A stretch of 64,000 nt of DNA, taken from the NCBI RefSeq assembly GCF_964355755.1, contig NC_092680.1:1121001-1185000 (forward strand), in the 5' to 3' direction. Positions within the stretch are counted from its first letter, which is position 1. The number at the start of each line of letters is the position of its first letter. Under the pieces are notes generated by a model, which did no database searches, was not told the origin of the DNA, and saw only the letters and a list, made by a program, of their open reading frames with translations. Below are positions 1 to 33,590 of the stretch, in pieces. A program made the position numbers and the translations under genes. The DNA comes from Antedon mediterranea. Taxonomy: Eukaryota > Echinodermata > Crinoidea > Comatulida > Antedonidae.

Positions 1-282
1 TTCAAGATGGAAATCCATTAGACAGTGTATATCACGATCGGAAAACACCTACATCGTTAAACCTAAATTCGTTTTAATTGTCAGTAACTAGTTATCTAAC
101 TCAACTTAATTTTTAGTAAACAGGGTTACATCAGGTGGTTAAAATCAGTACCGAAAGTATGAACCAACTTTATATATAGGCCTACCATCGAGTAAACATT
201 ATAGAAGTAACCCGCGATGTACCGAATTTTGCCGTAACGTAAATGTAGGCCTATATATAGATTATCATTAAAAATATAAAAA

Positions 283-1083: not shown

Positions 1084-1302
1084 CTGTAAATAATGAAATA
1101 AATACGGACCTTCAGTTTTAACCCAATAATAGCGGTGCAGTCAAACTTTAATGAATGTTTATGTCTAAATGTCTAAAGCAATATCTTCTCAATGCCATAA
1201 CATTTGATTTTCTTAAACAAAACAATATTAAGTAAAAATAACAAAACATTCGATTAACCCTCTTTCAAGTAAAATACCAAACAATTGATACGACAGTGTC
1301 TT

Positions 1303-12600: not shown

Positions 12601-14781
12601 GTTTTTACATTTGATTGAAATTTGAGTACATTGTTATTTTGTTAGTGGTCTAGATGTAGTGTAATGATTTAATGTTAGTGGTCTAGATGTAGTGTAATGA
12701 TTTAATGTTAGTGGTCTAGATGTAGTGTAATGATTTAATGTTAGTGGTCTAGATGTAGTGTAATGATTTAATGTTAGTGGTCTAGATGTAGTGTAATGAT
12801 AAAGTGAAAAATCATGGTTTATAATTAAGTCTTGCACTGGCAGTGACAAACTTACCACCTTCTTCTGATGGTTGAAATGTATCTATTTTATTACTTGAGG
12901 GTGAAATCCATTCTGGTTGAGTATAGTCCACACTCTCATCTGTACATGTAAGCTGAAGGTTAGACTTCACATATTGATTACCAGTTGGTTTGAGGACAAC
13001 AGAAGCTGAATATTAAGTTAAAATAATATTATAGATAGTTTGTTCATTGTCTGAATGATGTGATTAGTATTATAACCTGGCGCTACTGAACGTCTGCACC
13101 TAACCCAATTAAAAACATTCAATAGGATGGATGTATTATTTGGTGGCGGTAATAGTGACCATAAAGTCTTTATGCCCAGTGATGTGAAGTACCATAGCCT
13201 CTATAACACTCATGAAAAACTAAATAATAATATAAAGGCCTACATAAAATGGAAAATAGTACAAACAACAACAGCCATTCAAGTTGGCCTTATCTATGAA
13301 TTCCAGAAAAAAAAATGTTGCTAATGGCTTACCTTGAGATAGACACTTAGCCTTTTTGCCTCGTTAGTATAGAAGTATATAGAATAGTATACAAATAATG
13401 AATGTTTATGAGTGCAATGGTACAAATAATGGCACGAGGTGAATGATGAAAGGTTATATCAACGAGGCAAAGCTGAGTTGATATAACCTTTCATCATTCA
13501 CCAAGTGCCATTATTTGTACCATTACACGAATACAAAACATTCATTATTTGTTTTATATAACATCTAGACGGTTTTTTTTCGTACACAAAAATGTTTCAA
13601 AAAGTACTATTTAACGATCGTTGAATAGTGCGTACTATTGCACGCCATGTGACCCACATTCGTCCAATCAAATGACAGGAATTTATATAGGTGTTATATA
13701 AAATACTTTATTACTAGCCTGATTGATACTTTTTTGGCCTAGCCTAGCTAGTAGTAGGCCTACACTCAGATCTACTTTACTTACTTAGCTAGTACAGTAG
13801 TAGCTTACTCTAGGCATGATCCATGGAGGTATAATACCTCCATGCTCTAGCTAGGCTAGGCCTAGAAATTTTAAATTTAGTACAGTACAAAATGTATGTT
13901 GCATACACTTACAGAATATACACTCGATCTCAATAGCCAGCAGTAACAATGCTTGAATATACATTTGCCTAGAATTTCAGCATGGTATAACGGTTTGTAG
14001 AGACATTATTATTCGTACTGTGGGTTGTATGTGAAACAATGGACGGAAACAACATTAGTTAAGGCACAGTTAATGTACAGAGTTCATTACAGCAAAAGAT
14101 ACACACAGTAGCTGCTTATGACGTCAAGTACCTGGTAATGTAATTGTAAAATGGTGGGGAAATCCCCATGTCTAGGCGCATGCAACATTTGTTGTATGGG
14201 CGGCCATTAGTGTCATAATATATAACAAACAAATAAATAAACAAACAAGACATAATATAAATAAATATATTACAGTATTATTATAGAATTATTATAATTA
14301 CTTTTACAAAACGTCAACGTCTAAATTTTATCAATCTAGGGAGTCAAAAATTGTGACCAATCAGATTAGCATTTTACAGTCCTGGTTTGTGATTGGTTAA
14401 ATGTTTATAGTATTGTGTACATGCTAAATATAATATGGCCAAAGGTTATTAGGTGAATTGCTAAGTGTGCTTGTGTGCAGTGAGAAAGGAGACCCAATGC
14501 CATAGCTATGATTATGAACAAGATTTCATACTCGAACGAAATAACACATTTATAATATTTGTTATTATACAATAAATTAAGATCATCATTAGTCTGGCTT
14601 CCATATTGGAAACACGCAAGCCTCGCTACCACGTCAAGGTTGATGATCACAGCGAGGACTTACCTGTGGTTGGTTCCATGTCAAAAACTGTATCTTCCTG
14701 TTTTTTCTGCAATTCCATCCTTTCTCCAGTATCCAAGTACCGCACATGTATATCTATTAGAGGGGCTGGTCCGGATATAAT
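5293..14781 (-). CDS. Ig/FNIII single-pass membrane protein, exons 3' of the micro-exon array
   Basis: Coding exons in transcription order (high to low): 14664-14781, 12856-13005, 12289-12414, 11257-11548, 10708-10952, 9144-9275, 8851-8985, 8605-8745, 8253-8414, 7627-7737, 6849-7019, 6527-6620, 5826-5870, 5293-5350. All have AG/GT boundaries. Phase is continuous at every junction (mostly phase 1) down to TGA at 5293. From the first Ig exon onward they encode about 620 residues: Ig, Cys-rich module, a beta-sandwich region, Ig halves, FNIII, Thr/Ser stalk, TM helix and a tail of about 40 residues with no kinase. The architecture is receptor-like. I do not recognise an ortholog. The gene extends upstream through the array at 16.8-31.1 kb to a signal-peptide-like exon near 31.6 kb. 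Confidence 0.85.
6119..6150. repeat. (AATA)n simple repeat
   Basis: A short AAATAAATA run in the intron before the 45-nt tail exon. Another simple repeat, (TA)n, lies at 5698-5723. Confidence 0.9.
6849..7019 (-). CDS. Thr/Ser stalk exon with an internal 39-nt duplication
   Basis: The segment RDVATSDVTVMML occurs twice in tandem at the DNA level (39 nt each), followed by a partial third start (RDVSKT). It lies between FNIII and the TM exon, so it is an extracellular juxtamembrane stalk. Confidence 0.75.
7130..7320 (-). mobile_element. Degraded SINE, same family as 44222-44540
   Basis: It shares GGTTCTTTAAAGTGCA and the tRNA-like head remnant (TTAACTGCTTGGTCGC on the plus strand) with the better preserved copy at 44222-44540. 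It is intronic. Confidence 0.6.
7426..7574. mobile_element. MITE family 1 copy
   Basis: Both inverted ends are present (CTGTTTACACTATCAA at the left; TTTGATAGTGTAGACAGAGC at the right), with a TCACTACCATATTTG-like core. Intronic. Confidence 0.8.
7627..9275 (-). CDS. Ig halves and FNIII exons of the membrane protein
   Basis: 9144-9275 gives an Ig C-terminal half (DEDYGTYTCRGK). 8851-8985 and 8605-8745 give an I-set Ig domain (GGVIRCDVTGLPKPKVSW, then EDGTFECRGD). 8253-8414 and 7627-7737 give an FNIII domain (VPEPPVIRIPEEDVG, MGLHYIIYYND, then LTPSTLYDVHAVAVSMGGTS). All junctions are phase 1. Confidence 0.8.
8475..8545 (+). mobile_element. SINE 3' tail fragment with ATT repeat
   Basis: Contains GTGCAGCGCATTGAGC and GCGCTATATAAGAA followed by (ATT)n. 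The same tail occurs in the SINE at 41977-42245. Confidence 0.65.
9440..10680. repeat. Minisatellite of 14-17-bp units, about 75 copies
   Basis: Units are GCATAGGGGTGTCCCCT with deletion variants (GCATAGGGTGTCCCCT, GCAAGGTGTCCCCT). It lies in the intron between exons 10708-10952 and 9144-9275. All three minus-strand frames stay open over about 1.2 kb because the unit lacks stops in every register and its length is not a multiple of three. The resulting open frames (up to 505 codons) should not be annotated as protein. Flanks near 9300-9360 and 10665-10695 contain GGTTCTACTGTA-type ends, so it may have grown inside a transposon fragment. Confidence 0.9.
10708..11548 (-). CDS. Beta-rich ectodomain region over two exons (11257-11548, 10708-10952)
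   Basis: The exons join in phase 2 (GGACAG/GTTGG to CTAG/CTATC). The sequence includes a Cys pair (NDCHMIRG, YTSCES), the hydrophobic stretch EVVLVLVSDRLVFWEVNIQ, then YGIGDDAIHGGKTVDMMLYL and FTATEAANSW. The V-L-V-L...W pattern recalls the orphan domain of endoglin/betaglycan-type ectodomains, but the similarity is by eye and weak. The intron after this region holds the 14-17-bp minisatellite. Confidence 0.7.
11640..11945 (-). mobile_element. 5S rRNA-derived SINE (SINE3-like)
   Basis: The reverse complement carries the 3' part of 5S rRNA, with the blocks GGGCCTGGTTAG, CTTGGATGGGAGACC and GGGAATATCGGGTGCTGTA in correct order and spacing for the internal 5S promoter region. It is followed by a non-5S body to about 11640. 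The 5S 5' part is diverged. It sits in an intron of the Ig membrane protein gene, in the same orientation. Functional 5S is unlikely. Confidence 0.75.
11990..12078. mobile_element. MITE family 1 copy, short
   Basis: Contains AGTGTGATGTTCC, TGACATCATCATGTCCATAT and the end TTGATAGTGTAGACAAAGC. The left end is partly lost. A further fragment lies at 11160-11233. Confidence 0.65.
12289..12414 (-). CDS. Cysteine-rich module exon
   Basis: Phase 1 in and out, 126 nt. It carries nine Cys in a small EB/EGF-like pattern (ESCNAEFGRYCQNSF, CVNGFCACQQ, DPCSC). It is a likely extracellular disulfide-bonded module between the first Ig and the following beta-rich region. Confidence 0.75.
   Translation of the reverse strand, partial: LTVIMQNLVMLNLVVTVKIHLLLASMDSVLASNLELIHVLA
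12641..12802. repeat. 33-bp tandem repeat, five copies
   Basis: The unit contains TTAGTGGTCTAGATGTAGTG and TAATGATTTAATG. Copies are essentially identical. Intronic, between the Ig and Cys-rich exons. Confidence 0.9.
12856..13005 (-). CDS. First Ig-like exon of the membrane protein
   Basis: Only phase 1 entry is open. It encodes VVLKPTGNQYVKSNLQLTC followed by a Trp in EWISPSS, the Cys and Trp pattern of an Ig fold. The exit is phase 1 at GGTG/GTAAGTTT. This is the acceptor exon to which a micro-exon or the 118-nt exon would splice. Confidence 0.8.
13395..13560. mobile_element. Long hairpin (foldback) element
   Basis: The arms from about 13400-13465 and 13477-13550 are near-perfect inverted copies (for example TGGTACAAATAATGGCAC and GTGCCATTATTTGTACCA), separated by about 12 bp. 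A transcript would form a hairpin of more than 60 bp. It lies in the intron between 12856-13005 and 14664-14781. Confidence 0.8.
13561..14660. other. Intron sequence, nothing recognised
   Basis: Contains GGCCTAG/CTAGGC-rich stretches (13735-13870) typical of this genome's non-coding DNA. No splice-bounded open frame on either strand. Confidence 0.45.
14664..14781 (-). CDS. 118-nt exon ending in a micro-exon-like segment
   Basis: The acceptor GCATAGCAG ends at 14782 and the donor ACCACAG/GTAAGT is at 14664. Only one frame is open: phase 0 in, phase 1 out, beginning IISGPAPLIDIHVRYLDTGE and ending FDMEPTT. Its last 19 nt resemble the end of the 41-nt micro-exons upstream (LLEPIT in the same frame), so the micro-exons appear to be relatives of this exon's 3' end. 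It splices in phase to the Ig exon at 13005. Its phase-0 entry differs from the micro-exon entry phase, which bears on which upstream exons it can join. Confidence 0.75.
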
Positions 14782-14879
14782 CTGCTATGCCACCTACTAT
14801 GAAGTATCATATAAATGTTGAAACCTGGTTAAGAAAAACTATAGTCACCTGTAGGGAAAACTTACAATATCAATGCTAT

Positions 14880-16160
14880 CTTACACCTTTCCAAACAAAA
14901 TAACATGATTTGAAGTGCATTGCAACTTAAACCTGTAGATTCTTAGCTACACACAACCTGCAGTGAACATTTATTATACCAAGATAATGAAATTACAAAA
15001 AATAACCTGATTTGAAGTGCATTGCAACTTAAACCTGTAGATTCTTAGCTACACACAACCTGCAGTGAACATTTATTATACCAAGATAATAAATTTACTA
15101 AAAATAACCTGATTTGAAGTCCATTTCAACTTAAACCTGTAGATTCTTAGCTACACACAACCTGCAGTGAACATTTTTTATACAAAGATAATGAATTTAC
15201 TAAAAATAACCTGATTTGAAGTGCATTTCAACTTAAACCTGTAGATTCTTAGCTACACAAAACCTGCAGTGAACATTTTTTATACCAAGATAATAAATTT
15301 ACTAAAAAAATAACCTGATTTGAAGTGCATTGCAACTTAAACCTTTAGATTCTTAGCTACAACACAACCTGCAGTGAACATTTATTATATCAAGATAATG
15401 AATTTACTAAAAATAACCTGATTCGAAGTGCATTGCAACTTAAACCTGTAGATTCTTGGCTACACACAACCTGCAGTGAACATTTATTATACCAAGATAA
15501 TGAATTTACTAAAAATAACCTGATTTGAAGTGCATTTCAACTTAAACCTGTAGATTCTTAGCTACACACAACCTGCAGTGAACATTTATTATACCAAGAT
15601 AATGAATTTACTAAAAATAACCTGATTTGAAGTGCATTTCAACTTAAACATGTAGATTCTTAGCTGCACACAACCTGCAGTGAACATTTTTTATACCAAG
15701 ATAATAAATTTACTAAAAATAACCTGATTTGAAGTGCTTTGCAACTTAAACCTGTAGATTCTTAGCTACACACAACCTGCAGTGAACATTTTTTATACCA
15801 AGATAATAAATTTACTAAAAAAATAACCTGATTTGAAGTGCATTGCAACTTAAACCTTTAGATTCTTAGCTACAACACAACCTGCAGTGAACATTTATTA
15901 TACCAAGATAATGAATTTACTAAAAATAACCTGATTTGAAGTGCATTGCAACTTAAACCTGTAGATTCTTAGCTACACACAACCTGCAGTGAACATTTAT
16001 TATACCACGATAATGAATTTACTAAAAATAACCTGATTTGAAGTGTATTACAACTTAAACCTGTAGATTCTTAGCTACACACAACCTGCAGTGAACATTT
16101 TTTATACCAAGATAATAAATTTACTAAAAAATAAACTGATTTGAAGTACATTTTAGTTAC
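14880..16160 (-). repeat. Type-B tandem array, about 13 copies of a 101-105-bp unit
   Basis: Each unit contains, on the minus strand, an acceptor-like TTCACTGCAG, a 25-nt segment starting GTTGTGTGTAGCTAAGAATC, then a weak donor-like CAG/GTTTAAG. If it is an exon, phase 2 entry is open (LCVAKNLQ) and exits in phase 0, the phase needed by the 118-nt exon just downstream. The donor is poor and coding use is unproven. Diverged longer relatives (16160-16700, 25500-25940, 28740-29700) keep the ...CTGCAG...TTAAAC skeleton. Confidence 0.75.
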
Positions 16161-16716
16161 ACGCATATTTAAATAAGTTACCAAGATATAATGCCACCTT
16201 ACACATTATATAGAACAATTTACAACAAATATTTAAAATTATTTGAAATTTACTGAAACTTAAACCTCTACATTTTTAGATACACATATATCTTACCTAT
16301 ATACCTACATGGAACATTTACATTAACAAGATATAATGCCAACTTACAGATTATACAATTTTTACAAAAAATGACTTGATTTGAAGTGAATTGAAACCTC
16401 TATTCTTAACTACATTATTAAAATATTTTAACTACACACGACCTGCAGGGAAATCTTACGATACCAAGAAAATTTATAACAAATATTACAAATTATTTAA
16501 AATGTTTAAACCTAAACCTCTAAGTTCTTAGTTACACTTAATATATGACATCTTAGCAACACACGAACTGCAGGGAAATCTTACGATACCAAGAAAATTT
16601 ATAACAAATATTACAAATTATTTAAAATGTTTAAACCCAAACCTCTAAGTTCTTAGTTACACTTAATATATGACATCTTAGCAACACACATACCTGCAGA
16701 GAAAACGCAAACAAAC

Positions 16717-16764
16717 CTGTGTTTAGTTCCAATAGATTTTCATCTTTAGATTCATATATGCTAT
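16717..16764 (-). CDS. 48-nt type-C micro-exon candidate (module 1)
   Basis: Acceptor TCATTTCAG, donor ACACAG/GTTTGT. With phase 1 entry it is open (SIYESKDENLLELNT) and exits in phase 1, in the same frame as the type-A micro-exon ending LLEPIT and as the 118-nt exon ending FDMEPTT. It could therefore follow a type-A exon in frame. It is the last exon-like unit of its module in transcription order. Confidence 0.5.
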
Positions 16765-16818
16765 CTGAAATGAGTAAGAGAAAAATTATTAGGTACAGGT
16801 GGTGTGGTATGCTTACCT

Positions 16819-18940
16819 GTGACTGGTTTCAACAGCCTTGCATCGGTATGTCCATATCTGAAAAGAGAAAATAAAAATAAATTTATTTATACCATTGCAT
16901 AGGCTTTGATGTTTCTTACCTGTGATTGGTTCCAACAGCCTTGCATGGGTATGTCCATATCTGAAAAGAGAAAATAAAAATAAATTTATTTATACCATTG
17001 CATAGGCTTTGATGTTTCTTACCTGTGATTGGTTCCAACAGCCTTGCATGGGTATGTCCATATCTGAAAAAGGGAAAATATAAAGAAATTTAATTATACC
17101 ATTGCATAGGCTTTGATATTTCTTACCTGTGATTGGTTCCAACAGCCTTGTATCGGTATGTCCATATCTGAAAATGGAAAATATAAAGAAATTTAATTAT
17201 ACCATTGCATAGGTTTTGATGTTTCTTACCTGTGATTGGTTCCAACAGCCTTGCATCGGTATGTCCATATCTGAAAAGAGAAAATAAAAATAAATTTAAT
17301 TATACCATTGCATAGCCTTTAATGTTTCTAAACTGTGATTATTTCCAACAGCCTTGCATCATTATGTCCATATCTGAAAAGGGAAAATAAAAAGAAATTT
17401 ATTTATACCATTGCATAGGCTTTGATGTTTCTTACCTTTGATTGGTTCCAACAGCCTTGCATCGGTATGTCCATATCTGAAAAGAGAAAATAAAAATAAA
17501 TGTAATTATACCATTGCATAGCCTTTAATGTTTCTTACCTGTGATTGGTTCCAACTGTCTTGCATCGGTATGTCCATATCTGAAAATGGAAAATATAAAG
17601 AAATTTAATTATACCATTGCATAGGTTTTGATGTTTCTTACCTGTGATTGGTTCCAACAGCCTTGAATCGGTATGTCCATATCTGAAAAGGGAAAATAAA
17701 AATAAATTTAATTATACCATTGCATAGCCTTTAATGTTTCTAAACTGTGATTATTTCCAACAGCCTTGCATCATTATGTCCATATCTGAAAAGGGAAAAT
17801 AAAAAGAAATGTATTTATACCATTGCATAGGCTTTGATGTTTCTTACCTGTGATTGGTTCCAACAGCCTTGCATCGGTATTTCCATATCTGAAAAGAAAA
17901 AATAAAAATAAATTTAATTATACCATTGCATAGCCTTTAATGTTTCTTACCTGTGATTATTTCCAACAGCCTTGCATCATTATGTCCATATCTGAAAAGG
18001 GAAAATAAAAAGAAATGTATTTATACCATTGCATAGGCTTTGATGTTTCTTACCGTACCTGTGATTATTTCCAACAGTCTTGCATCAGTATGTCCATATC
18101 TGAAAAGGGAAAATGAAAAGAAATTTAATTACACCATATTGTATTATAACTTTTGATGTTTCTTACCTGAGATTGGTTCAAACAGCCTTGCATCTGTTTG
18201 TCCATATCTGAAAAGGGAAAATAAAAAGAAATTTATTTATACCATTGCATAGGCTTTGATGTTTCTTACCTGTGATTGGTTCCAATAGCCTTGCATCGGT
18301 ATGTCCATATCTGAAAAGGGAAAATAAAAAGAAATTTATTTATACCATTGCATAGGCTTTGATGTTTCTTACCTGTGATTGGTTCCTACAGCCTTTAATC
18401 GGTATGTCCATATCTGAAAAGGGAAAATATAAAGAAATTTATTTATACCATTGCATAGGCTTTGATGTTTCTTACCTGTGATTGGTTCCAACAGCCTTGC
18501 ATCGGTATGTCCATATCTGAAAAGGGAAAATAAAAAGAAATTTATTTATACCATTGCATAGGCTTTGATGTTTCTTACCTGTGATTGGTTCCAATAGCCT
18601 TGCATCGGTATGTCCATATCTGAAAAGGGAAAATAAAAAGAAATTTATTTATACCATTGCATAGGCTTTGATGTTTCTTACCTGTGATTGGTTCCTACAG
18701 CCTTGCATCGGTATGTCCATATCTGAAAAGGGAAAATATAAAGAAATTTAATTATACCATTGCATAGGCTTTGATATTTCTTACCTGTGATTGGTTCCTA
18801 CAGTCCTTCATTGGTACGTCCATATCTGAAAAGGGAAAATATAAAGAAATTTATTTATACTATTGCATAGGCTTTGATATTTCTTACCTGTGATTAGTTC
18901 CTACAGTCCTGCATTGGTATGTCCATAGGTACTATCTGAA
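16819..18940 (-). repeat. Type-A micro-exon array, block 1 (about 21 copies)
   Basis: The repeat unit is about 103 bp. On the minus strand each unit reads pyrimidine tract ...CCCTTTTCAG, a 41-nt core beginning ATATGGACATACCGATGCAA and ending GGAACCAATCACAG, then GTAAGAAAC, leaving introns of about 62 nt. Most copies here are of the open class (LLEPIT frame). Copies near 17340, 17755 and 17960 are degenerate: AATAATCACAG in place of CCAATCACAG, TAA or similar stops, and the first two have lost the donor (CACAGTTTAG). The first unit in transcription order (about 18890-18940) is a 48-nt variant beginning ATAGTACCTATGGAC. Confidence 0.9.
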
Positions 18941-19540
18941 AACAATAACTACTATAAATAATTATACCACTTAATATTTTTCTTTCCCATGATTGGTTCC
19001 AAAACCTTGCATCTGTAGACATATACCTAATGGGAAAACTTACTATACCCAAATGTAATACCATTTTACACATTGTATAAAATAATTTTACCAAAAATAT
19101 AACATGATTTGAAATACATTGGAACTTAACGTTTAGATTCTTAGCTACACTTATATATCTTAGTTACACACATACATGTAGAGAAAACTTACTATACAAA
19201 GATAATGCCATCTTAAACAATATATAAAATGAATTTACAAAAAAGAAACCTGATTTGAAATGCATTCAAAACTTAAACCTGTAGATTCTTAGCTACACAC
19301 AATCAACATGCAGTGAACATGTTTTATACCAAGCTAATAAATTTACTAAAAAATAACCTGATTTGAAGTGCATTGCAACTTAAACCTGTAGATTCTTAGC
19401 TACACACAACCTGCAGAGAAAACTCAAACAAACCTGTGTTTAGTTCCAATAGATTTTCATCTTTAGATTCATATTATGCTATCTGAAATGAGTAAGAGAA
19501 AAATTATTAGGTACAGGTGGTGTGGTATGCTTACCTGTGA
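18941..19540 (-). repeat. Module junction: diverged repeats, type-B units and type-C exon
   Basis: Contains about three type-B-like units and a type-C core at 19434-19482. This C copy has one extra T (49 nt), which puts TGA in the expected frame, so it is probably broken. The segment 18886-19400 is nearly identical to 24285-24800, showing a segmental duplication. Confidence 0.75.
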
Positions 19541-22500
19541 CTGGTTTCCACAGTCTTGCATCGATATGTCCATAGCTGAAAAGGGAAAAAATAAAGAAAT
19601 TTAATTATACTATTGAATAGGCTTTGATGTTTCTTACCTGTGATTGGTTCCAACAGTCTTGTATCGGTATGTCCATATCTGAAAAAGGAAAATAAAAAGA
19701 CATTTAATTATACCATTAAATAGGCTATTTTTTTCTTACCTGTGATTGGTTCCAACAGCCTTGCATTGGTATGTCCACATCTGAAAAGGGAAAAAATAAA
19801 GAAAGTTAATTATACTATTGAATAGTCCTTGATGTTTCTTACCTGTGATTGGTTCCAACAACCTTGCATCGGTATGTCCATATCTGAAAAGGGAAAATAT
19901 AAAGAAATTTATTTATACCATTGCATAGGCTTTGATGTTTCTTACCTGTGATTGGTTCCAACAGCCTTGCATCGGTATGTCCATATCTGAAAAGGGAAAA
20001 TATAAAGAAATTTAATTATACCATTGCATAGGCTTTGATATTCCTTACCTGTGATTGGTTCCTACAGTCCTGCATCGGTATGTCCATATCTGAAAAGGGA
20101 AAATATAAAGAAATTTAATTATACCATTGCATAGGCTTTGATGTTTCTTACCTGTGATTGGTTCCTACAGTCCTGCATTGGTATGTCCATATCTGAAAAT
20201 GGAAAATATAAAGAAATTTAATTATACCATTGCATAGACTTTATGTTTCTTACCTGTGATTGGTTCCAACAGTCTTGCATCGGTATGTCCATATCTGAAA
20301 AGGGAAAATATAAAGAAATTTAATTATACCATTGCATAGGCTTTGATGTTTCTTACCTGTGATTGGTTCCAACAGTCTTGCATCGGTATGTCCATATCTG
20401 AAAAGGGAAAATATAAAGAAATTTAATTATACCATTGCATAGGCTTTGATGTTTCTTACCTGTGATTGGTTCCTACAGTCCTGCATTGGTATGTCCATAT
20501 CTGAAAAGGGAAAATATAAAGAAATTTATTTATACCATTGCATAGGCTTTGATGTTTCTTACCTGTGATTGGTTCCTACAGTCCTGCATTGGTATGTCCA
20601 TATCTGAAAAGAAAAAATATAAAGAAATTTATTTATACCATTGCATAGGCTTTGATGTTTCTTACCTGTGATTGGTTCCTACAGTCCTGCATTGGTATGT
20701 CCATATCTGAAAAGGGAAAATATAAAGAAATTTAATTCTACCATTGCATAGGCTTTGATATTTCTTACCTGTGATTGGTTCCTACAGTCCTGCATTGGTA
20801 TGTCCATATCTGAAAAGGGAAAATATAAAGAAATTTAATTCTACCATTGCATAGGCTTTGATATTTCTTACCTGTGATTGGTTCCTACAGTCCTGCATTG
20901 GTATGTCCATATCTGAAAAGGGAAAATAAAAAGAAATTTAATTATACCATTGCATAGGCTTTGATATTTCTTACCTGTGATTGGTTCCTACAGTCTTGCA
21001 TTGGTATGTCCATATCTGAAAAGGGAAAATATAAAGACATTTTATTATACCATTGCATAGGCTTTGATATTTCTTACCTGTGATTGGTTCCTACAGTCTT
21101 GCATTGGTATGTCCATATCTGAAAAGGGAAAATATAAAGAAATTTAATTATACCATTGCATAGACTTTATGTTTCTTACCTGTGACTGGTTCCAACAGTC
21201 TTGCATCGGTATGTCCATATCTGAAAAGGGAAAATATAAAAAAATTTAATTATACCATTGCATAGGCTTTGATGTTTCTTACCTGTGATTGGTTCCAACA
21301 GTCTTGCATCGGTATGTCCATATCTGAAAAGGGAAAATATAAAGAAATTTAATTATACCATTGCATAGGCTTTGATGTTTCTTACCTGTGATTGGTTCCT
21401 ACAGTCCTGCATTGGTATGTCCATATCTGAAAAGGGAAAATATAAAGAAATTTAATTATACCATTGCATAGACTTTATGTTTCTTACCTGTGATTGGTTC
21501 CAACAGTCTTGCATTGGTATGTCCATATCTGATAAGGGAAAATATAAAGAAATGTTATTATACCATTGCATAGGCTTTGATGTTTCTTACCTGTGATTGG
21601 TTCCAACAGTCTTGCATCGGTATGTCCATATCTGAAAAGGGAAAATATAAAGAAATTTAATTATACCATTGCATAGGCTTTGATGTTTCTTACCTGTGAT
21701 TGGTTCCTACAGTCCTGCATTGGTATCTTCATATCTGAAAAGGGAAAATATAAAGAAATTTATTTATACCATTGCATAGGCTTTGATGTTTCTTACCTGT
21801 GATTGGTTCCTACAGTCCTGCATTGGTATGTCCATATTTGAAAAGGGACAATATTTATAAAGAAATTTATTTATACCATTGCATAGGCTTTGATGTTTCT
21901 TACCTGTGATTGGTTCCTACAGTCCTGCATTGGTATGTCCATATCTGAAAAGGGAAAATATAAAGAAATTTAATTATACCATTGCATAGACTTTATGTTT
22001 CTTACCTGTGATTGGTTCCAACAGTCTTGCATCGGTATGTCCATATCTGAAAAGGGAAAATATAAAGAAATTTAATTATACCATTGCATAGGCTTTGATA
22101 TTTCTAACCTGTGATTGGTTCCTACAGTCCTGCATTGGTATGTCCATATCTGAAAAGGGAAAATATAAAGAAATTTAATTATACCATTGCATAGGCTTTG
22201 ATATTTCTTACCTGTGATTGGTTCCTACAGTCCTGCATTGGTATGTCCATATCTGAAAAGGGAAAATATAAAGAAATTTAATTATACCATTGCATAGGCT
22301 TTGATATTTCTTACCTGTGATTGGTTCCTACAGTCCTGCATTGGTATGTCCATATCTGAAAAGGGAAAATATAAAGAAATTTAATTCTACCATTGCATAG
22401 GCTTTGATGTTTCTTACCTGTGATTGGTTCCTACAGTCCTGCATTGGTATGTCCATATCTGAAAAGGGAAAATATAAAGAAATTTAATTATACCATTGCA

Positions 22501-24345
22501 TAGGCTTTGATATTTCTTACCTGTGATTGGTTCCTACAGTCCTGCATTGGTATGTCCATATCTGAAAAGGGAAAATATAAAGAAATTTAATTATACCATT
22601 GCATAGGCTTTGATATTTCTTACCTGTGATTGGTTCCTACAGTCCTGCATTGGTATGTCCATATCTGAAAAGGGAAAATATAAAGAAATTTAATTCTACC
22701 ATTGCATAGGCTTTGATGTTTCTTACCTGTGATTGGTTCCTACAGTCCTGCATTGGTATGTCCATATTTGAAAAGGGACAATATTTATAAAAAAATTTAT
22801 TTATACCATTGCATAGGCTTTGATATTTCTAACCTGTGATTGGTTCCTACAGTCCTGCATTGGTATGTCCATATCTGAAAAGGAAAAATATAAAGAAATT
22901 TAATTATACCATTGCATAGGCTTTGATATTTCTTACCTGTGATTGGTTCCTACAGTCCTGCATTGGTATGTCCATATCTGAAAAGGGAAAATATAAAGAA
23001 ATTTAATTATACCATTGCATAAGCTTTGATATTTCTTACCTGTGATTGGTTCCTACAGTCCTGCATTGGTATGTCCATATCTGAAAAGGGAAAATAAAAA
23101 GAAATTTAATTATACCATTGCATAGGCTTTGATGTTTCTTACCTGTGATTGGTTCCTACAGTCTTGCATCGGTATGTCCATATCTGAAAAGGGAAAATAT
23201 AAAGAAATTTAATTATACCATTGCATAGGCTTTGATGTTTCTTACCTGTGATTGGTTCCAACAGTCTTGCATCGGTATGTCCATATCTGAAAAGGGAAAA
23301 TATAAAGAAATTTAATTATACCATTGCATAGGCTTTGATGTTTCTTACCTGTGATTGGTTCCTACAGTCCTGCATTGGTATGTCCATATCTGAAAAGGGA
23401 AAATATAAAGAAATTTATTTATACCATTGCATAAGCTTTGATGTTTCTTACCTGTGATTGGTTCCTACAGTCCTGCATTGGTATGCCCAAATCTGAAAAG
23501 GGAAAATATAAAGAAATTTATTTATACCATTGCATAGGCTTTGATATTTCTTACCTGTGATTGGTTCCTACAGTCTTGCATTGGTATGTCCATATCTGAA
23601 AAGGGAAAATATAAAGAAATTTAATTATACCATTGCATAGGCTTTGATATTTCTTATCTGTGATTGGTTCCTACAGTCTTTCATCGGTATGTCCATATCT
23701 GAAAAGGGAAAATATAAAGAAATTTATTTATACCATTGCATAGGCTTTGATGTTTCTTACCTGTGATTGGTTCCAACAGCCTTGCATCGGTATGTCCATA
23801 TCTGAAAAGGGAAAATAAAAAGAAGTTTATTTATACCATTGCATAGGCTTTGATGTGTCTTACCTGTGATTGGTTCCAATAGCCTTGCATCGGTATGTCC
23901 ATATCTCTGAAAAGGGAAAATAAAAAGAAATTTATTTATACCATTGCATAGGCTTTGATGTTTCTTACCTGTGATTGGTTCCAACAGTCTTGCATTGGTA
24001 TGTCCATATCTGAAAAGAGAAAATATAAAGAAATTTAATTATACCATTGCATAGGCTTTGATGTTTCTTACCTGTGATTGGTTCCTACAGCCTTGCATCG
24101 GTATGTCCATATCTGAAAAGGGAAAATATAAAGAAATTTAATTATACCATTGCATACAGTAGGCTTTGATATTTCTTACCTGTGATTGGTTCCTACAGTC
24201 CTTCATTGGTACGTCCATATCTGAAAAGGGAAAATATAAAGAAATTTATTTATACTATTGCATAGGCTTTGATGTTTCTTACCTGTGATTGGTTCCTACA
24301 GTCCTGCATTGGTATGTCCATAGGTACTATCTGAAACAATAACTA
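19538..24345 (-). repeat. Type-A micro-exon array, block 2 (about 47 copies)
   Basis: The largest and most homogeneous block, period 103 bp, with acceptor and donor kept in nearly all copies. Roughly two thirds of copies have CTGTAGGAACC where the others have CTGTTGGAACC. In the frame that joins the Ig exon this is an amber codon. In the other two frames these copies stay open (IWTYQCRTVGTNH and MDIPMQDCRNQSQ). The transcription-first unit (about 24282-24335) is the 48-nt variant as in block 1. Confidence 0.9.
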
Positions 24346-26060
24346 CTATAAATAATTATACCACTTAATATTTTTTCTTTCCCATGATTGGTTCCAAAAC
24401 CTTGCATCTGTAGACATATACCTAATGGGAAAACTTACTATACCCAAATGTAATACCATTTTACACATTGTATAAAATAATTTTACCAAAAATATAACAT
24501 GATTTGAAATGCATTGGAACTTAACGTTTAGATTCTTAGCTACACTTATATATCTTAGTTACACACATACATGTAGAGAAAACTTACTATACAAAGATAA
24601 TGCCATCTTAAACAATATATAAAATGAATTTACAAAAAAGAAACCTGATTTGAAATGCATTCAAAACTTAAACCTGTAGATTCTTAGCTACACACAATCA
24701 ACATGCAGTGAACATGTTTTATACCAAGCTAATAAATTTACTAAAAAATAACCTGATTTGAAGTGCATTGCAACTTAAACCTGTAGATTCTTAGCTACAC
24801 TCAACCTGCAGTGAACATTTATTATATCAAGATAATTAATTTATTAAACAATAACCTGATTTGAAGTGCTTTTTGCAACTTAAACCTGTAGATTCTTAGC
24901 TACACACAACCTGCAGTGAACATTTATTATACCAAGTAAATGAATTTACAAAAAATAACCTGATTTGAAGTGCATTTCAACTTAAACCTGTAGATTCTTA
25001 GCTACACACAACCTGCAGTGAACATTTATTATACCAAGATAATAAATTTACTAAAAAATAACCTGATTTGAAGTGCATTGCAACTTAAACCTGTAGATTC
25101 TTAGCTACACACAACCTGCAGTGAACATTTATTATACCAAGATAATGAATTTACAAAAAATAACCTGATTTGAAGTGCATTTCAACTTAAACCTCTAGAT
25201 TCTTAGCTACACACAACCTGCAGTGAACATTTATTATACCAAGATAATGAATTTACTAAAAATAACCTGATTTGAAGTGCATTGCAACTTAAACCTGCAG
25301 ATTCTTAGCTACACACAACCTGCAGTGAAAATTTATTATACCGAGATAATGAATTTACTAAAAATAACCTGATTTGAAGTGCATTACAACTTAAACCTGT
25401 AGATTCTTAGCTACACACAACCTGCAGTGAACATTTATTATACCAAGATAATGAATTTACTAAAAATAACCTGATTTGAAGTGCATTTCAACTTAAACCT
25501 GTAGATTATTAGCTACATTTTAGTTACACGCATATTTAAATTACCAAGATATAATGCCACCTTTAAACACTATATAGAACAATTTACAACAAATATTTAA
25601 AATTATTTGAAATTCACTGAAACTTAAACCTCTACATTTTTAGATACACATATATCTTACCTATATACCTACATGGAACATTAACATTAACAAGCTATAA
25701 TGCCACCTTACAGATTATACAAAAAAAATGTACAAAAAATGACATGATTTGAAGTGAATTGAAACTTAAACCTCTATTCTTAACTACACTCTTAATATAT
25801 CACACGACCTGCAGGGAAATCTTACGATACCAAGAAAATTTATAACAAATATTACAAATTATTTAAAATGTTTAAACCCAAACCTCTAAGTTCTTAGTTA
25901 CACTTAATATATGACATCTTAGCAACACACATACCTGCAGAGAAAACGCAAACAAACCTGTGTTTAGTTCCAATAGATTTTCATCTTTAGATTCATATAT
26001 GCTATCTGAAATGAGTAAGAGAAAAATTATTAGGTACAGGTGGTGTGGTATGCTTACCTG
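24346..26060 (-). repeat. Module junction: about 10 type-B units, diverged repeats, type-C exon
   Basis: Type-B units run 24496-25520, then longer diverged relatives to 25940. An intact 48-nt type-C exon candidate lies at 25958-26005, with the same frame and splice sites as the one at 16717-16764. Confidence 0.75.
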
Positions 26061-28670
26061 TGACTGGTTTCAACAGTCTTACATCGGTATGTCCATATCT
26101 GAAAAAGGAAAATAAAAAGACATTTAATTATACCATTAAATAGGCTATTTTTTTCTTACCTGTGATTGGTTCCAACAGCCTTGCATTGGTATGTCCACAT
26201 CTGAAAAGGGAAAAAATAAAGAAAGTTAATTATACTATTGAATAGGCTTTGATGTTTCTTACCTGTGATTGGTTCCAACAGTCTTGTATCGGTATGTCCA
26301 TATCTGAAAGGGAAAATATAAAGAAATTTAATTATACCATTTAATAGGCTTTAATGTTTCTTACCTGTGATTGGTTCCAACAGCCTTGCATCGGTATGTC
26401 CATATCTGAAAAGGGAAAATATAAAGAAATTTATTTATACCATTGCATAGGCTTTGATGTTTCTTACCTGTGATTGGTTCCAACAGCCTTGCATCGGTAT
26501 GTCCATTTCTGAAAAGGGAAAATATAAAGAAATTTAATTATACCATTGCATAGGCTTTGATATTTCTTACCTGTGATTGGTTCCTACAGTCCTGCATCGG
26601 TATGTCCATATCTGAAAAAGAAAATAAAAAGACATTTAATTATACCATTAAATAGGCTATTTTTTTCTTACCTGTGATTGGTTCCAACAGCCTTGCATTG
26701 GTATGTCCACATCTGAAATAGGAAAATAAAAGGAAATTTATTCATACCATTGTTTAGGCTTTGATGTTTCTTACCTGTGATTGGTTCCAACAGCCTTGCA
26801 TCGGTAAGTCCATATCTGAAAAGGGAAAAAATACTATTGAATAGGCTTTGATGTTTCTTACCTGTGATTGGTTCCAACAGTCTTGTATCGGTATGTCCAT
26901 ATCTGAAAGGGAAAATATAAAGAAATTTAATTATACCATTTAATAGGCTTTGATGTTTCTTACCTGTGATTGGTTCCAACAGCCTTGCATCGGTATGTCC
27001 ATATCTGAAAAGGGAAAATATGAAGAAATTTATTTATACCATTGCATAGGCTTTGATGTTTCTTACCTGTGATTGGTTCCAACAGCCTTTCATCGGTATG
27101 TCCATATCTGAAAAGGGAAAATATAAAGAAATTTAATTATACCATTGCATAGGCTTTGATATTTCTTACCTGTGATTGGTTCCTACAGTCCTGCATCGGT
27201 ATGTCCATATTTGAAAAAGGAAAATAAAAATAAATTTAATTATACAATTGCATAGCCTTTAATGTTTCTTACCTGTGATTGGTTCCAACAGCCTTGCATC
27301 GGTATGTCCATATCTGAAAAAGGAAAATAAAAATAAATTTATTTATACCATTGCATAGGCTTTGATGTTTCTTACCTGTGATTGGTTCCAACAGCCTTGC
27401 ATCGGTATGTCCATATCTGAAAAAGGAAAATAAAAATAAGTTTAATTATACCATTGCATAGGCTATTTTTTTTTACCTGTGATTGGTTCCAACAGCCTTG
27501 CATCGATAAGTCCATATCTGAAAAAGGAAAATAAAAAGAAATTTAATTATACAATTGCATAGCCTTTAATGTTTCTTACCTGTGATTGGTTCCAACAGTC
27601 TTGTATCGGTATGTCCATATCTGAAAAAGGAAAATAAAAAGAAATTTAATTATACAATTGCATAGCCTTTAATGTTTCTTACCTGTGATTGGTTCCAACA
27701 GCCTTGCATCGGTATGTCCATATCTGAAAAAGAAAATTTAAAAAAATTTAATTATACCATTAAATAGGCTATTTTTTTTTACTTGTGATCGGTTCTAACA
27801 GCCTTGCATTGGTATGTCCATATCTGAAATAGGAAAATAAAAAGAAATTTATTTATACCATTGCATAGGTTTTGATGTTTCTTACCTGTGATCGGTTCCA
27901 ACAGTCCTGCATTGGTATGTACATATCTGAAAAAGGAAAATAAAAAGAAATTTATTTATACCATTGCATAGGCTTTGATGTTTCTTACCTGTGATTGGTT
28001 CCAATAGTCTTGCATTCGTATGTCCATATCTGAAATAGGAGAATAAAAGGAAATTTATTTATACCATTGCATAGGTTTTGATGTTTCTTACCTGTGGTTG
28101 GTTCCAATAGTCTTACATTGGTATGTCCATATCTGAAATAGGAAAATAAAAAGAAATTTATTTATACCATTGCATAGGCTTTGATGTTTCTTACCTGTGA
28201 TTGGTTCCAACAGCCTTGCATCGGTATGTCCATATCTGAAATAGGAAAATAAAAAGAAATTTATTTATACCATTGCATAGGTTTTGATGTTTCTTACCTG
28301 TGATTGGTTCCAACAGCTTTGCATCGGTATTTCCATATCTGAAAAGGGAAAATATAAAGAAATTTAATTACACCATATTGTATAAGCTTTGATGTTTCTT
28401 ACCTGTGATTATTTCCAACAGTCTTGCATCAGTATGTCCATATCTGAAAAGGGAAAATATAAATTAATTTAATTACACCATATTGTATAAGTTTTGATGT
28501 TTCTTACCTGTGATTGGTTCCAACAGCCTTGCATTGGTATTTCCATATCTGAAAAGGGAAAATATAAAGAAATTTAATTATACCATTGCATAGGCTTTGA
28601 TATTTCTTACCTGTGATTGGTTCCTACAGTCCTGCATTGGTATTTCGATAGGTACTATCTGAAAACAATA
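26061..28670 (-). repeat. Type-A micro-exon array, block 3 (about 26 copies)
   Basis: Mostly open-class copies (CTGTTGGAACC) with more sequence variety than block 2, for example CTTACATCGG, CATTCGTATG and CGATAAGTCC forms. A copy near 28613-28665 is the 48-nt transcription-first variant. Some introns are shortened (near 26815-26845). Confidence 0.9.
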
Positions 28671-29868
28671 ACTACTGTAAATAATTATACCACTTAATAT
28701 TTTTTCTTTCCCATGATTTTACCAAAAATATAACATGATTTGAAATGTATTGAAACTTAACCTTTAGATTCTTAGCTACACTTATATATCTTAGTTACAC
28801 ACATACATGTAGAGAAAACTTACTATACAAAGGTAATGCCATCTTAAACATTATATAAAATGAATGAATTTACAAAAAAGAAACCTGATTTGAAATGCAT
28901 TGAAAACTTAAACCTCTATTCTTAACTACACTTATATATCTTAACTACACACGACCTGCAGGGAAAACTTAGAATAAGAAGAGAATGCCACCTTACACAT
29001 TATATAAAATAATTTCAAACAAATATTTAAAATTATTTGAAATGCACTGAAACTTAAACATGTATATATTCTTAACTACACTTAATATTTCTTAACTACA
29101 CACACAACTACAGGAAAAGCTTACAATACCAAGATATAATGCCACCTTACACATTATATATCATAATTTACAACAACTATTTTACATTATTTGAAATGCA
29201 TTGAAACTTAAACCTGTATAATATTCTTAGCTACATTTAATATAAATTAACTACAGACACAACTGCAGGGAAAGTTTACAATACCAAGATGTTATGCCAC
29301 CTTACACATCATATAATAATTTACAACAAATATTTAAAATTATTTGAAATGCACTGAAACTTAAACCTGTATAAATTCTTAGCTACACTTAATATAACTT
29401 AACTAAACACACAACTACAGGAAAAGTTTACAATACCAAGATATAATGCCATCTTACACAATATATATAACAATTTACAACAAATATTTAAATTTATTTG
29501 AAATGCACTGAAACTTAAACCTGTATAAATTCTTAGCTACACTTAATATAACTTAACTAAACACACAACTACAGGAAAAGTTTACAATACCAAGATATAA
29601 TGCCACCTTACACATTATATATCATAATTTACAACAAATATTTAAATTTATTTGAAATGAACAGAAACTTAAACCTCTACATTCTTAGATACTTAATATA
29701 GTATATTTTAGCAACAAACATACCCGCAGAGAAGATGTTCCTGTGTTTAGTTCCAACAGATTTGTATATGTAGGTGCATACTGTATGTATAATGCATATA
29801 TGCTATCTGAAATGAGTAATAGTAAAGAACAATTATTATGTGCAGATGGTGTTTTATGCTTACCTGTG
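28671..29868 (-). repeat. Module junction: diverged B-type units and a decayed type-C exon
   Basis: Several 140-150-bp units with the CTGCAG / TTAAAC skeleton. The type-C relative at about 29740-29805 has lost its GT donor (CACAG/GAAC) and has an insertion, so it looks dead. Confidence 0.65.
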
Positions 29869-31085
29869 ATTGGTTCCAACAGCCTTGCATCGGTATGTCC
29901 ATATCTGAAAAGGAAAAATATAAAGAAAATTAATTACACCATATTGCATAGCCTTTAATGTTTCTTACCTGTGATTGGTTCCAACAGCCTTGCATCGGTA
30001 TGTCCATATCTGAAAAGGGAAAATATAAAGAAATTTAATTATACCATTGCATAGGCTTTGATGTTTCTTACCTGTGATTGGTTCCTACAGTCCTGCATCG
30101 GTATGTCCATATTTGAAAAAGGAAAATAAAAATAAATTTAATTATACCATTGCATAGCCTTTAATGTTTCTTACCTGTGATTGGTTCCAACAGCCTTGCA
30201 TCGGTATGTCCATATCTGAAAAAGGAAAATAAAAAGAAATTTATTCATACCATTGCATAGGCTTTGATGTTTCTTACCTGTGATTGGTTCCAACAGCCTT
30301 GTATTGGTATGTCCATATCTGAAAAAGGAAAATAAAAATAAATTTAATTATACCATTGCATAGCCTTTAATGTTTCTTACCTGTGATTGGTTCCAACAGC
30401 CTTGCATCGGTATGTCCATATCTGAAAAAGGAAAATAAAAAGAAATTTATTCATACTATTGCATAGGTTTTGATGTTTCTTACCTGTGATTGGTTCCAAC
30501 AGCCTTGCATCGGTATGTCCATATCTGAAAAGGGAAAATAAAAAGAAATTTATTTATTCCATTACATAGGCTTTGATGTTTCTTACCCGAGATTAGTTCC
30601 AACAGCCTTGCATTGGTATGTCCATATCTGAAAAGGGAAAATAAAAAGAAATTTATTTATACCATTGCATAGGTTTTGATGTTTCTTACCTGTGATTGGT
30701 TCCAACAGCCTTGCATTGGTATGTCCATATCTGAAAAGGGAAAATATAAATTTAATTATACCATTAGATCTTTGATGTTTCTTACCTGTGATTGGTTCCA
30801 AAAGTCCTGCATTGGTATTTCCATATCTGAAATGAGAAAGTATAAAGAAATTTAATTATACGATTAGATCTTTGATGTTTCTTACCTGTGATTGGTTCCA
30901 AAAGTCCTGCATTGGTATGTCCATATCTGAAATGAGAAAGTATAAAGACATTTAATTATACCATTAGATCTTTGATGTTTCTTACCTGTGATTGGTTCCA
31001 AAAGTCCTGCATTGGTATGTCCATATCTGAAATGAGAAAGTATAAAGACATTTAATTATACCATTAGATCTTTGATGTTTCTTAC
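29869..31085 (-). repeat. Type-A micro-exon array, block 4 (about 12 copies)
   Basis: The transcription-first block. Copies nearest the 5' end (30780-31030) share CTTTTGGAACC and a TTTCTCATTTCAG acceptor. All but one copy are open in the Ig-joining frame. Confidence 0.9.
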
Positions 31086-31120
31086 CTGTGATTGGTTTCC
31101 TTGTATTGTTCAAACTAGAT
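31086..31120 (-). CDS. 35-nt first micro-exon candidate
   Basis: Acceptor CTCTTTTCAG and donor CACAG/GTAAGAAAC. It is a 35-nt relative of the 41-nt type-A exon with the same phases (2 in, 1 out). It is open only in the Ig-joining frame, encoding SSLNNTRKPIT. The other two frames contain TAG or TGA. This supports that frame as the ancestral coding one. Confidence 0.55.
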
Positions 31121-31577
31121 CTGAAAAGAGAAGAAAACAAACTATATATGAACATGTGATTTCATGGTTTTAAGTTAAAAATTATACACTTTAATAAAAC
31201 TTCTTCTAAAATTTTTCCAGGTCCCTCAAATTTATTTTAGATGCTTTCTGTAACATTTTACATTTTACACAATAAACAATTGATGTGTTAGTATACATGT
31301 AACATTCATAGCTGTGTCTGCATTAACTAATAGTCGTCCCAAGAAACCTAAATTGTCTGAAAAAAAAAGAAAGTGCAGGGAAAAAATTATTTTTATTAAT
31401 GTGCAGTTAACATACATAAAAACAGTAACAGGGCCCATATAAATGACAAAACATTTATTTATTTGTGTAAATGTAAAATGTTACAGAAGTACGCGCAGAA
31501 ACAAAAGCTACCTAAAATCTAACTGCAAATTACAAGAAGTATTGAATATTATGTGATTTAAACTTAAACATTCTTAC
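31121..31577. other. Intron between signal-peptide exon and array
   Basis: A possible exon follows the acceptor TTTTTTTTTCAG at about 31357, but it is not in phase with the preceding exon. Otherwise nothing recognised. Confidence 0.4.
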
Positions 31578-31608
31578 TGGGAAATATAAGAATATAAAAT
31601 AATAATAC

Positions 31609-31684
31609 TTATCTGTCATAAGTGTAAAGAAGCACAGCATGAATGATGATACCACAACAGCAGTCTGAAGACTGGAAATAAGTC
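31609..31684 (-). CDS. Signal-peptide-like exon of the Ig membrane protein
   Basis: Acceptor TTTTTTGCAG precedes 31684. In phase 1 it reads LISSLQTAVVVSSFMLCFFT then LMTDK, a typical hydrophobic signal core. The only ATG in this frame within the exon (31640) would give a very short leader, so a coding upstream exon in phase 1 is expected but not found. Two donors are possible. GATAA/GTATTA at 31609 gives phase 2, matching type-A micro-exons. CCCA/GTAAGA at 31578 gives phase 0, matching the 118-nt exon. Both the signal peptide and its link to the array are inference. Confidence 0.5.
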
Positions 31685-32364
31685 CTGCAAAAAATAAACA
31701 AAAAATAAATGAATATTCGTCCTTAAATAAAAGAAGTATACTTTTAAGTCTAATTTGACTAATAATAATAAATTTAATAATTGTATTATTATATTCTCAG
31801 TCATCAATTTAACCTATTCAATTCAACAATAAATGTTCCCGTATTAAAATTATACATCTCCCGAGGCCCCGAGACTCCTTTCCCGCTTGTAGATTGGGCT
31901 GAGTAGAAAATCAGACGACGTACGCGCTGAACACCTGTGACGTCACAGTAACCGGGCACCAGTGAACGCGCTGAGCAGACGATAATAACGGTTCGCGGCG
32001 ATTTACTTTTACAAACCATAGCTCAATGTAGGCTCAGTTATTTTCGTTAAATTTGAAAAAAAATTAACTATCTTGATGAAATCTGTGTTGTAAATGGTAA
32101 TAGAATGTTTTGATATTGAAAATTGGCAAATTAGTAGGCCAAATTCGCACCAGCAGGCCTATGCCTAAAATTGCATACGAGAGTAGATCGAGGGTCGAGG
32201 CGAAGAAGGTGGTTTATAAAATCAACATTTTCTGTATAAAAATGTGTCATTAAATAAAATAAAGAACTAAATTATGAGCTAGGGCCTACTATATGTGTGT
32301 ATTATAACCGGGAACTCGTAATATTTTGTATTAGTGCATATTTTTAAACAAATAAAATACTTAC

Positions 32365-32440
32365 CTGCTCTATCGTCTCTCTCTTGATGTTTCTTCGTCG
32401 CCGTCAACTTACGAAATGGCAACGTAAATCGCCGAGTGGG
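32365..32440 (-). other. Candidate 5' non-coding exon with consensus donor
   Basis: GATAGAGCAG/GTAAGTATT at 32365 is a near-ideal donor. The exon has no ATG and its 5' limit is unknown. The CpG-richer segment 31860-32010 (with TGACGTCA) and this exon suggest a promoter region for the Ig membrane protein gene. Confidence 0.4.
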
Positions 32441-33590
32441 TGACTTGACGAAAACTTAATATGCAAATTGTTAGATGAACTTATTCTAACTGTGATTGGC
32501 TAAATCGTCGTTACTATTTTTGCTGCAACTCGTTGATTGGTTACTCAATAATTACTGTTGCCCCCGCGTATTCTGAACTATCTCGGAACAACGATTGGTC
32601 AACTTTTTCACAGAAACACGTGTCTCCCGCATGCTACAACCAAACTCCGCCCAAAGGAAGTTTTAAGAACTGTTTTACTAGAGGGCGCTTTACAAGGTGG
32701 AAGAGTTGCCAGGATCATACAATAATGTTTTATGATGTTATTATGCAAATGACCTCAAAACGCCTGGACAGTCAAAATGACTTTTCTATTAAGTTAGGGT
32801 GTCTGAATGATTGAATTTACGTTAGGTGGCGGTATTATGGATAAGACAAAGCCATAATTATTCCAGTTAAAACGGATCAACGTTTCGTAAAACCTTTTTG
32901 TCATTACATTTTATTTTAAAGTTATATATACAGCAGTAAACTTAATTTAATTCATAAGATTTACTGAAACTTAAAGAAGATTAATTTGCTGAAAAATACA
33001 TCTGAAACCGTAGGCCTACTACGATATTTCAAACCAAATATGAATATTGTTTACAAAAAACAACTACTGTAGGTCTATAATAAAAGGTAACATGTATATT
33101 TTATCATAATAAAACAAATCTTAAACTAAATAAATAATATTTGAGGCAATTGAAGTTCATGAGTGTGGATAGGTACACTACAGAATGTATGAATATTATA
33201 TTAGTTAGTTAATAAAAAAAATCTTCATTATTATATGAAGTCTTTATTCAACTCGACGTCAAACTTGTTAAAGTATTGCTAGAACATATTGAAGAGTTTT
33301 CGGTGGTACGTCGTTAGATATTCAAATAATTAAATATTATTATTCAAATGAATGATTACCATACCGTACAAACAAACGTTTAGTAGTAGGCGTATTGGAA
33401 TTAATTACAATGCTGCTAAACTACAGTTGGTTGCTATACCTGGTTAGCATCGCCGATGCAAGATTTGTACGCTAAGAAAACGAATAAACAAACGCAGTTT
33501 AGGAATTTATAAAGCCTACATAAGGTCATCCTCAAAATGTTTATAATACAATGGAAGAGAATGAAAAAAAAAAACACTTTAAAATTGTGT
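32441..33590. other. Non-coding between 5' exon candidates
   Basis: AT-rich. The 93-codon plus-strand frame at 32533-32814 has no splice or family support. Confidence 0.4.

Follow-up and report, generated by a model that had tools for sequence, protein, structure and literature searches.

Tandem arrays of 41-nt micro-exon-like units beside an Ig receptor gene in Antedon mediterranea: a candidate non-coding gene family

The 64,000-nt stretch of Antedon mediterranea DNA analyzed here (the window, or locus W; C11:1121001-1185000 in a genome of 354 Mb) carries long arrays of 103-bp repeats that resemble micro-exons with their introns, next to exons of an immunoglobulin (Ig) receptor gene. All positions are those of the window unless another locus is named, and the arrays are read on the minus strand. 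Tandem Repeats Finder (TRF) locates the 103-bp repeats in three intervals, 16812-24322 (which spans two blocks), 26053-28650 and 29859-31097, and a profile search resolves them into 107 regular units in blocks of 13, 26, 47 and 21, with boundary variants at the block ends; the original prediction had arrived at the same numbers by reading the letters alone. Binned by block, the profile hits amount to 14, 27, 49 and 23, and 107 is reached once the block-end exon of each block (48-66 nt) and two decayed relics of 40 nt are set aside. Each unit reads as a pyrimidine tract, CAG, a 41-nt core and a GTAAG donor, just as had been described from the sequence. The pattern of a pyrimidine tract with YAG, 20-70 nt and GTAAG occurs in just 42 of 20,000 segments of 103 bp drawn at random elsewhere in the window. 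The supposed uniformity of the units holds for the bulk of the array, where AG and GT are both present at 102 of the 113 profile hits, 95 of them with an exon of 41 nt. It fails at the edges, since the first unit exon (31120-31086) has 35 nt and blocks 2 to 4 open with an exon of 48 nt, and in the 7 of 107 units that have a broken splice site (acceptor AA at 30112, 27210, 22767 and 21837; donor ATAAG at 23698; TTTAG at 17785 and 17373). An AC flagged at 24323 is taken for a misaligned 48-nt exon that begins at 24330. Other tandem families, with periods of 102, 154 and 125 bp, are situated between the unit blocks or past them (Table 1).

The array is not confined to the window. A genome search with the unit gave 406 matches, and those among the matches listed lie on the C11 minus strand, in W and two more clusters, B (C11:1.735-1.762 Mb) and C (C11:3.086-3.101 Mb). 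The similarity of both to the window extends from 14563 to about 33199, for the most part at 82-90% identity. Blastn aligns W with B over 14563-16284 (88%) and 30568-33199 (83%), and with C over 14563-16155 (90%), 30007-32841 (87%) and, weakly, 32935-33199 (67%); besides these flanks there are long matches within the arrays. When both 5' blocks served as queries, three further loci emerged as older relatives on C9 or elsewhere on C11, E (C11:0.995 Mb; 5' end only), F (C11:18.39 Mb) and D (C9:24.11 Mb). The profile search counts 349 units in W, B and C together (109, 173 and 67, respectively), and with 115 unit matches in D and 10 in F the total is 474 over five loci; a re-run gave 113 in W, 181 in B, 72 in C, 110 in D and 10 in F. 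At all five loci, D and F included, the arrays run in the orientation of the promoter-like block. A 21-nt unit motif with up to two mismatches is found at 436 places in the genome (control: 0), and its exact matches, among the matches listed, fall at C9:24.11-24.13 Mb or on C11. Several of the B matches among those listed come in pairs spaced 11,205 bp apart, a recent internal duplication. Locus G (C11:19.57 Mb) shares the 3' part only, and no such units occur in the 26 kb examined there. The array is best read as the body of one member of a small gene family made up of W, B, C, D and F, a truncated E and a 3'-only G. A 57-bp tandem array of about 307 copies adjoins G (L029-L031, C11:19.568-19.594 Mb).

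A promoter-like block and short exons precede the array. The donor of exon 1 and the acceptor of exon 2 are kept in all six loci (W, B, C, D, E and F), and the acceptors of exon 3 and of the first unit are kept at every one of the six that reaches them. Directly after exon 2 (31609), the five loci reaching this point read CAGATAAGT, which is GTAAGT with its first G changed to A; the exon 2 donor is possibly a rare AT-type donor, or else the GTA 3 nt further on. Three shorter matches to the promoter block (L032, L033, L034; 95-230 bp) lie outside the six loci, and one of them, L033, stands upstream of a copine gene that has the same orientation. At the other end of the module, the stretch of D homologous to the candidate terminal exon is itself a tandem of 161 bp in 4.6 copies (L022, L023; locus D 22767-23512). 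These 161-bp copies are separated by 36-nt GT..TACTAAC..AG stretches.

The units look like real exons, as judged from the conservation of their splice signals. The end of the exon, AACCAATCACAG followed by GTAAG, and the splice signals are kept across the array loci, and in W, B and C, 330 of 349 units retain both AG and GT, while 331 retain GTAAG. For a test of constraint, 18 gap-rich units were dropped and the remaining 331 of 349 were reduced to 211 distinct haplotypes. Among these, the minor-allele frequency is 0.012 in GTAAG, 0.017 in CAG and 0.013 over the final 12 bases of the exon, as against 0.105 in mid-exon and 0.069-0.104 in the pyrimidine tract and intron. Of 76 segments of 20 bases, the one spanning the exon end and the donor has the lowest value, and a permutation on the seven sites of AG and GTAAG gives p 0.006. 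A similar pattern is seen at a greater distance: between the unit consensus of W, B and C and that of the diverged locus D, exon plus splice signals are identical at 48 of 49 positions and the intron at 45 of 54, while the 5' flank is about 72% identical. The exon-like nature of the units, as originally predicted, is supported by both comparisons, and constraint tied to exon structure, which a plain satellite would lack, is present at moderate strength.

The same exons show little sign of encoding protein. In W, B and C, 311 of 349 exons are 41 nt long and 312 of 346 GT-AG exons leave a remainder of two when divided by three, so that the multiples of three of Schistosoma-type micro-exon genes (MEGs) are not what is found. 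Stops occur in 77, 84 and 26 of the 311 41-nt units in frames 0, 1 and 2, respectively, compared with means of 90, 74 and 18 stop-bearing units in 200 column shuffles (ranges 82-98, 69-80 and 13-23); frames 1 and 2 thus lie over their shuffle ranges. Variability in these units is flat across codon positions. Together with the stops, this lends no support to the diversification of a protein N-terminus that the original prediction had envisaged. When the exons are concatenated, the longest open stretch in W, B, C, F and D is 420, 197, 199, 86 and 167 aa, and exon-order shuffles average 273, 264, 205, 100 and 214 aa; W alone exceeds its mean, yet stays below its shuffle maximum of 478. The 5' exons behave likewise. 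Exon 2 measures 76, 75, 75, 68 and 84 nt and exon 3 measures 60, 63, 60, 56 and 74 nt in W, B, C, D and F, differences that are mostly not multiples of three. Indels that distinguish the loci include ones of 1 and 7 nt ahead of the ATG in exon 2 and ones of 13 and 22 nt within the terminal exon. Only W, D and F have the first ATG of exon 2, and its absence from B and C weakens the case for a signal-peptide exon. Counted from the exon 2 ATG (in B and C from a later one), with the units in and exon 3 skipped, the frame stays open for 173, 33, 75, 52 and 35 aa in W, B, C, D and F, and with exon 3 included for 21, 15, 14, 11 and 132 aa. On the whole, the tests on the dominant 41-nt exons are mostly negative, without a convincing coding signature.

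We hold, with modest confidence, that the arrays represent a gene family, probably now non-coding, whose transcript would be spliced from a long series of tandemly duplicated micro-exons, and which in the window is a neighbor of the Ig receptor. Each of the five array loci has a promoter-like block and 5' exons ahead of tandem cassettes, which in W, B and C mostly consist of a 41-nt exon and a 62-nt intron. An ancestral exon of about 48 nt (48 nt was probably the ancestral length) with its intron would have been amplified by unequal exchange, after which 7 nt would have been lost from most copies at W, B and C. Transcription and splicing would yield a long repetitive RNA, and the targets of selection would now be splicing and a short RNA motif within the exon, not a peptide. 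The most likely action would be that of a repeat-bearing non-coding RNA, in which many copies of one short exon offer many binding sites. More tentatively, splicing might join up to about 170 copies of a single 41-nt exon into this RNA, a concatemer in which the exon would be the selected RNA motif, each copy being encoded with its own minimal intron.

Several observations weigh against a spliced non-coding gene family, one being the lack of an RNA fold in the units (z 0.3 to 0.6). Others limit the evidence for constraint or agree better with an unspliced or junk satellite, in which the exon-intron unit of a dead gene was amplified in tandem and the splice signals are fossils kept alike by homogenization. 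The module's tandem families gain and lose copies, as the duplicated pairs in B illustrate, and a spliced core-core junction, as expected from a retrocopy, was searched for genome-wide and found 0 times. The splice-site contrast is weak when scored by the number of distinct alleles (p 0.093), and the Fisher test of exon versus intron between the two consensus sequences gives only p 0.017. Since the spacer consensus of W and D is also about 90% identical without gaps (80% with gaps), the extra constraint on the exon is moderate. In D, only 49 of 110 profile hits have AG and GT in register, many units have altered boundaries, and the exons are of several lengths, some looking fused. However, homogenization should not specially spare splice sites and the exon 3' end, nor does a satellite account for the near-identity of exon and splice consensus beside a diverged intron, or for the conserved promoter block and exon 1 donor. 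We regard the satellite as unlikely.

The remaining contrary observations favor a protein-coding micro-exon gene, in which 16-codon phase-1 exons behind a small leader (MLCF..TLMTDK) would encode a repetitive secreted peptide, W, B and C perhaps being decayed or using single units. This leader is open and in frame with the first unit in W, D and F, and one copy of the terminal exon in D reads open. Some 48-nt exons of D look coding. Among 14 distinct 48-nt exons, stops occur in 3 in frame 2, compared with 10 and 6 in the other frames. At four of five loci, all except F, the open stretch of the concatenated exons exceeds the maximum from 200 base-shuffled sets (184, 189, 153, 135 and 149 aa in W, B, C, F and D), indicating that the exon sequence itself is poor in stops. 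In frame 0, the stop-bearing units of W, B and C fall beneath the whole shuffle range; the units being related, departures from column shuffles show linkage first, but frame 0 is still a hint toward coding. Against such a gene stand the prevailing 41-nt length, the short open lengths from the exon 2 ATG at most loci with or without exon 3, the exon-order shuffles and, for the use of single units, a frame with stops in 84 of 311 units. A coding gene appears somewhat less likely even than a satellite, and the 48-nt, 16-codon exons possibly hint at coding ancestry more than at present coding.

Two further ideas concern the role of the module as DNA or as part of another gene. A DNA-level array of CCAAT elements is conceivable: CCAAT is the NF-Y element and the conserved exon end holds CCAATCA, like the promoter block, yet the conserved GTAAG and TTTTCAG would be left unexplained. 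The module might also act as a 5' leader of whichever gene comes next, against which it counts that the neighbors differ between loci. Downstream of W lies the receptor, downstream of C lies COX5A (Pfam E 9.4e-32), and downstream of F follow a reverse-transcriptase open reading frame (ORF) and a second gene, which has no Pfam match and which we take to be C2CD5.

The array had originally been placed inside the Ig receptor gene, a claim that the distribution of the receptor does not support. When 195 aa from three receptor exons were searched against the genome, seven matches appeared, none of them outside the window and C8. C8 also holds DNA relatives of the exons at 13.0, 12.4, 11.5, 10.9 and 9.3 kb, and four of eight receptor ORFs match there. 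In the pieces of B, C and F examined, only short matches (18-29 aa) to one ORF (7490-7738) were found, the DNA of which also carries a dispersed repeat. As far as the 195-aa search shows, B, C, D and F have the module but not the receptor. Conversely, no unit occurs in the 9.5 kb examined at the C8 paralogue, 6.7 kb of which precede the first matched exon. In the window, the shared module ends at about 14563. The exon at 13005 has no Pfam match, so that no Ig domain was found in it, while the exon at 8843-9013 is I-set-like, just below the Pfam cut-off. Rather than being flanked by constitutive exons of one coding gene, as in a Dscam-type arrangement, the module recurs without the receptor, and the array is best read as its neighbor and not as part of the receptor gene. 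In the window alone, a fusion transcript joining array and receptor may nevertheless exist. Mutually exclusive coding micro-exons near the receptor N-terminus, for which the shared strand, the position of 13005 as the nearest recognized downstream exon and the common phase given by a 41-nt length can be cited, are very improbable with arrays at five loci, receptor exons only in the window and on C8, no Ig match at 13005 and mostly negative coding tests.

Table 1. Features of the module in the window, listed from its 5' end
Feature	Position	Strand	Remarks
Module common to W, B and C	14563..33199	-	promoter-like block, short 5' exons, arrays, terminal exon; blastn
Promoter-like block, CCAAT boxes	32355..32730	-	aligned in W, B, C, E, D, F; 9 genome matches
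Exon 1 end inside promoter-like block	donor GTAAGTATTTT after 32365	-	six-locus alignment
Conserved intron 1 block with TGACGTCA	31825..32050	-	6 genome matches; 97% in B, 96% in C
Exon 2 (signal-peptide-like exon of the original prediction)	31609..31684	-	acceptor kept 6/6 loci
Putative exon 3, donor uncertain	31297..31356	-	acceptor AG kept 5/5 loci reaching exon 3
Unit block 1	29864..31120	-	13 exons, first 35 nt
Block-end exon variant, 66 nt	29741..29806	-	no GT at aligned donor; profile search
154-bp spacer tandem array	28723..29676	-	TRF
Unit block 2	26058..28658	-	26 exons, first 48 nt
Block-end exon variant, 48 nt	25958..26005	-	profile search
102-bp spacer tandem array	24623..25517	-	TRF
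Unit block 3	19535..24330	-	47 exons
Block-end exon variant, 49 nt	19434..19482	-	profile search
Unit block 4	16817..18935	-	21 exons, first 48 nt
Block-end exon variant, 48 nt	16717..16764	-	profile search
102-bp spacer tandem array	14897..16152	-	TRF
Terminal exon candidate	14664..14824	-	acceptor at 14825 or 14797; 3' end GGAACCAACCACAG before GTAAG matches units
Dispersed element of about 80 nt, directly past terminal donor	14577..14657	-	37 genome matches including W, B, C

The dispersed element past the terminal donor is 80-130 nt long and well conserved amid unrelated flanks (L008, L011-L014, L016, L017). A closing stem, TGATCATCA/TGATGATCA, is predicted, with double changes in 2 of 31 pairs, and a comparison of the element with Rfam gave no credible match. 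Four copies (L008, L009, L010, L015), whose flanks are nearly identical, resemble a mobile element. In the window as a whole, Rfam at gathering score and a tRNA scan gave 0 matches each, and folding of the unit, its trimer and the intron gave nothing above shuffles. A mirtron or small nucleolar RNA in the 62-nt intron was discarded, with no fold and no C/D box seen by eye. Among the neighboring sequences, the C-terminus of a tyrosine kinase lies upstream at about 36 kb, a 16-17-bp tandem array of 73 copies (9489-10671) lies within long minus-strand open frames between receptor exons, and an open frame at 251-1111 (minus strand) has a HEFAH motif and a sub-threshold metalloprotease-type Pfam match.

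Known systems resemble the arrays in part. Dscam-type arrays likewise consist of tandem homologous exons sharing one phase, but they are coding and their exons are chosen singly within a receptor gene, neither of which is supported here. Aphid bicycle genes, too, have many micro-exons each, yet these genes encode effectors and their exons are not tandem copies. In the long non-coding RNA Firre/FIRRE, an exonic local repeat (RRD) restricted to the locus makes up 7 of 13 exons in human and 11 of 23 in mouse, other repeat families occupying the introns; the local repeats are 100-750 bp long and discontinuous (PMC4820808). Similar to Firre, the arrays would provide a repeat, perhaps confined to its own family of loci, that forms many exons of a putative non-coding RNA. 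In contrast to Firre, W, B and C string together about 67 to 173 cassettes of 103 bp, for the most part head to tail, every cassette includes a 62-nt intron, and the family is multi-copy. Schistosoma MEGs have many very short exons in series, mostly multiples of three, with introns of 100 to almost 5000 bp, and encode proteins with a signal peptide (PMC10526429). The series of very short exons is shared with MEGs, whereas 41-nt exons, 62-nt introns and the want of a convincing coding signature set the arrays apart. Repeat-derived exons of non-coding RNA (Firre) and micro-exon genes (schistosomes) are already known. A literature search for similar arrays, beyond whose reach most subscription journals lay, found no equivalent, and to our knowledge a multi-copy, seemingly non-coding family with at least 100 exon-intron cassettes in series seems to be new.

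These arrays also call for caution, as a splice-ready array beside a receptor gene need not generate diversity. If transcribed and spliced throughout, they would require more than 100 consecutive splicing steps of a 41-nt exon and a 62-nt intron per RNA, an extreme natural test of intron definition. If a gene family of spliced tandem micro-exons is indeed what they represent, the loci show how exon arrays can arise and spread, perhaps without a coding function.

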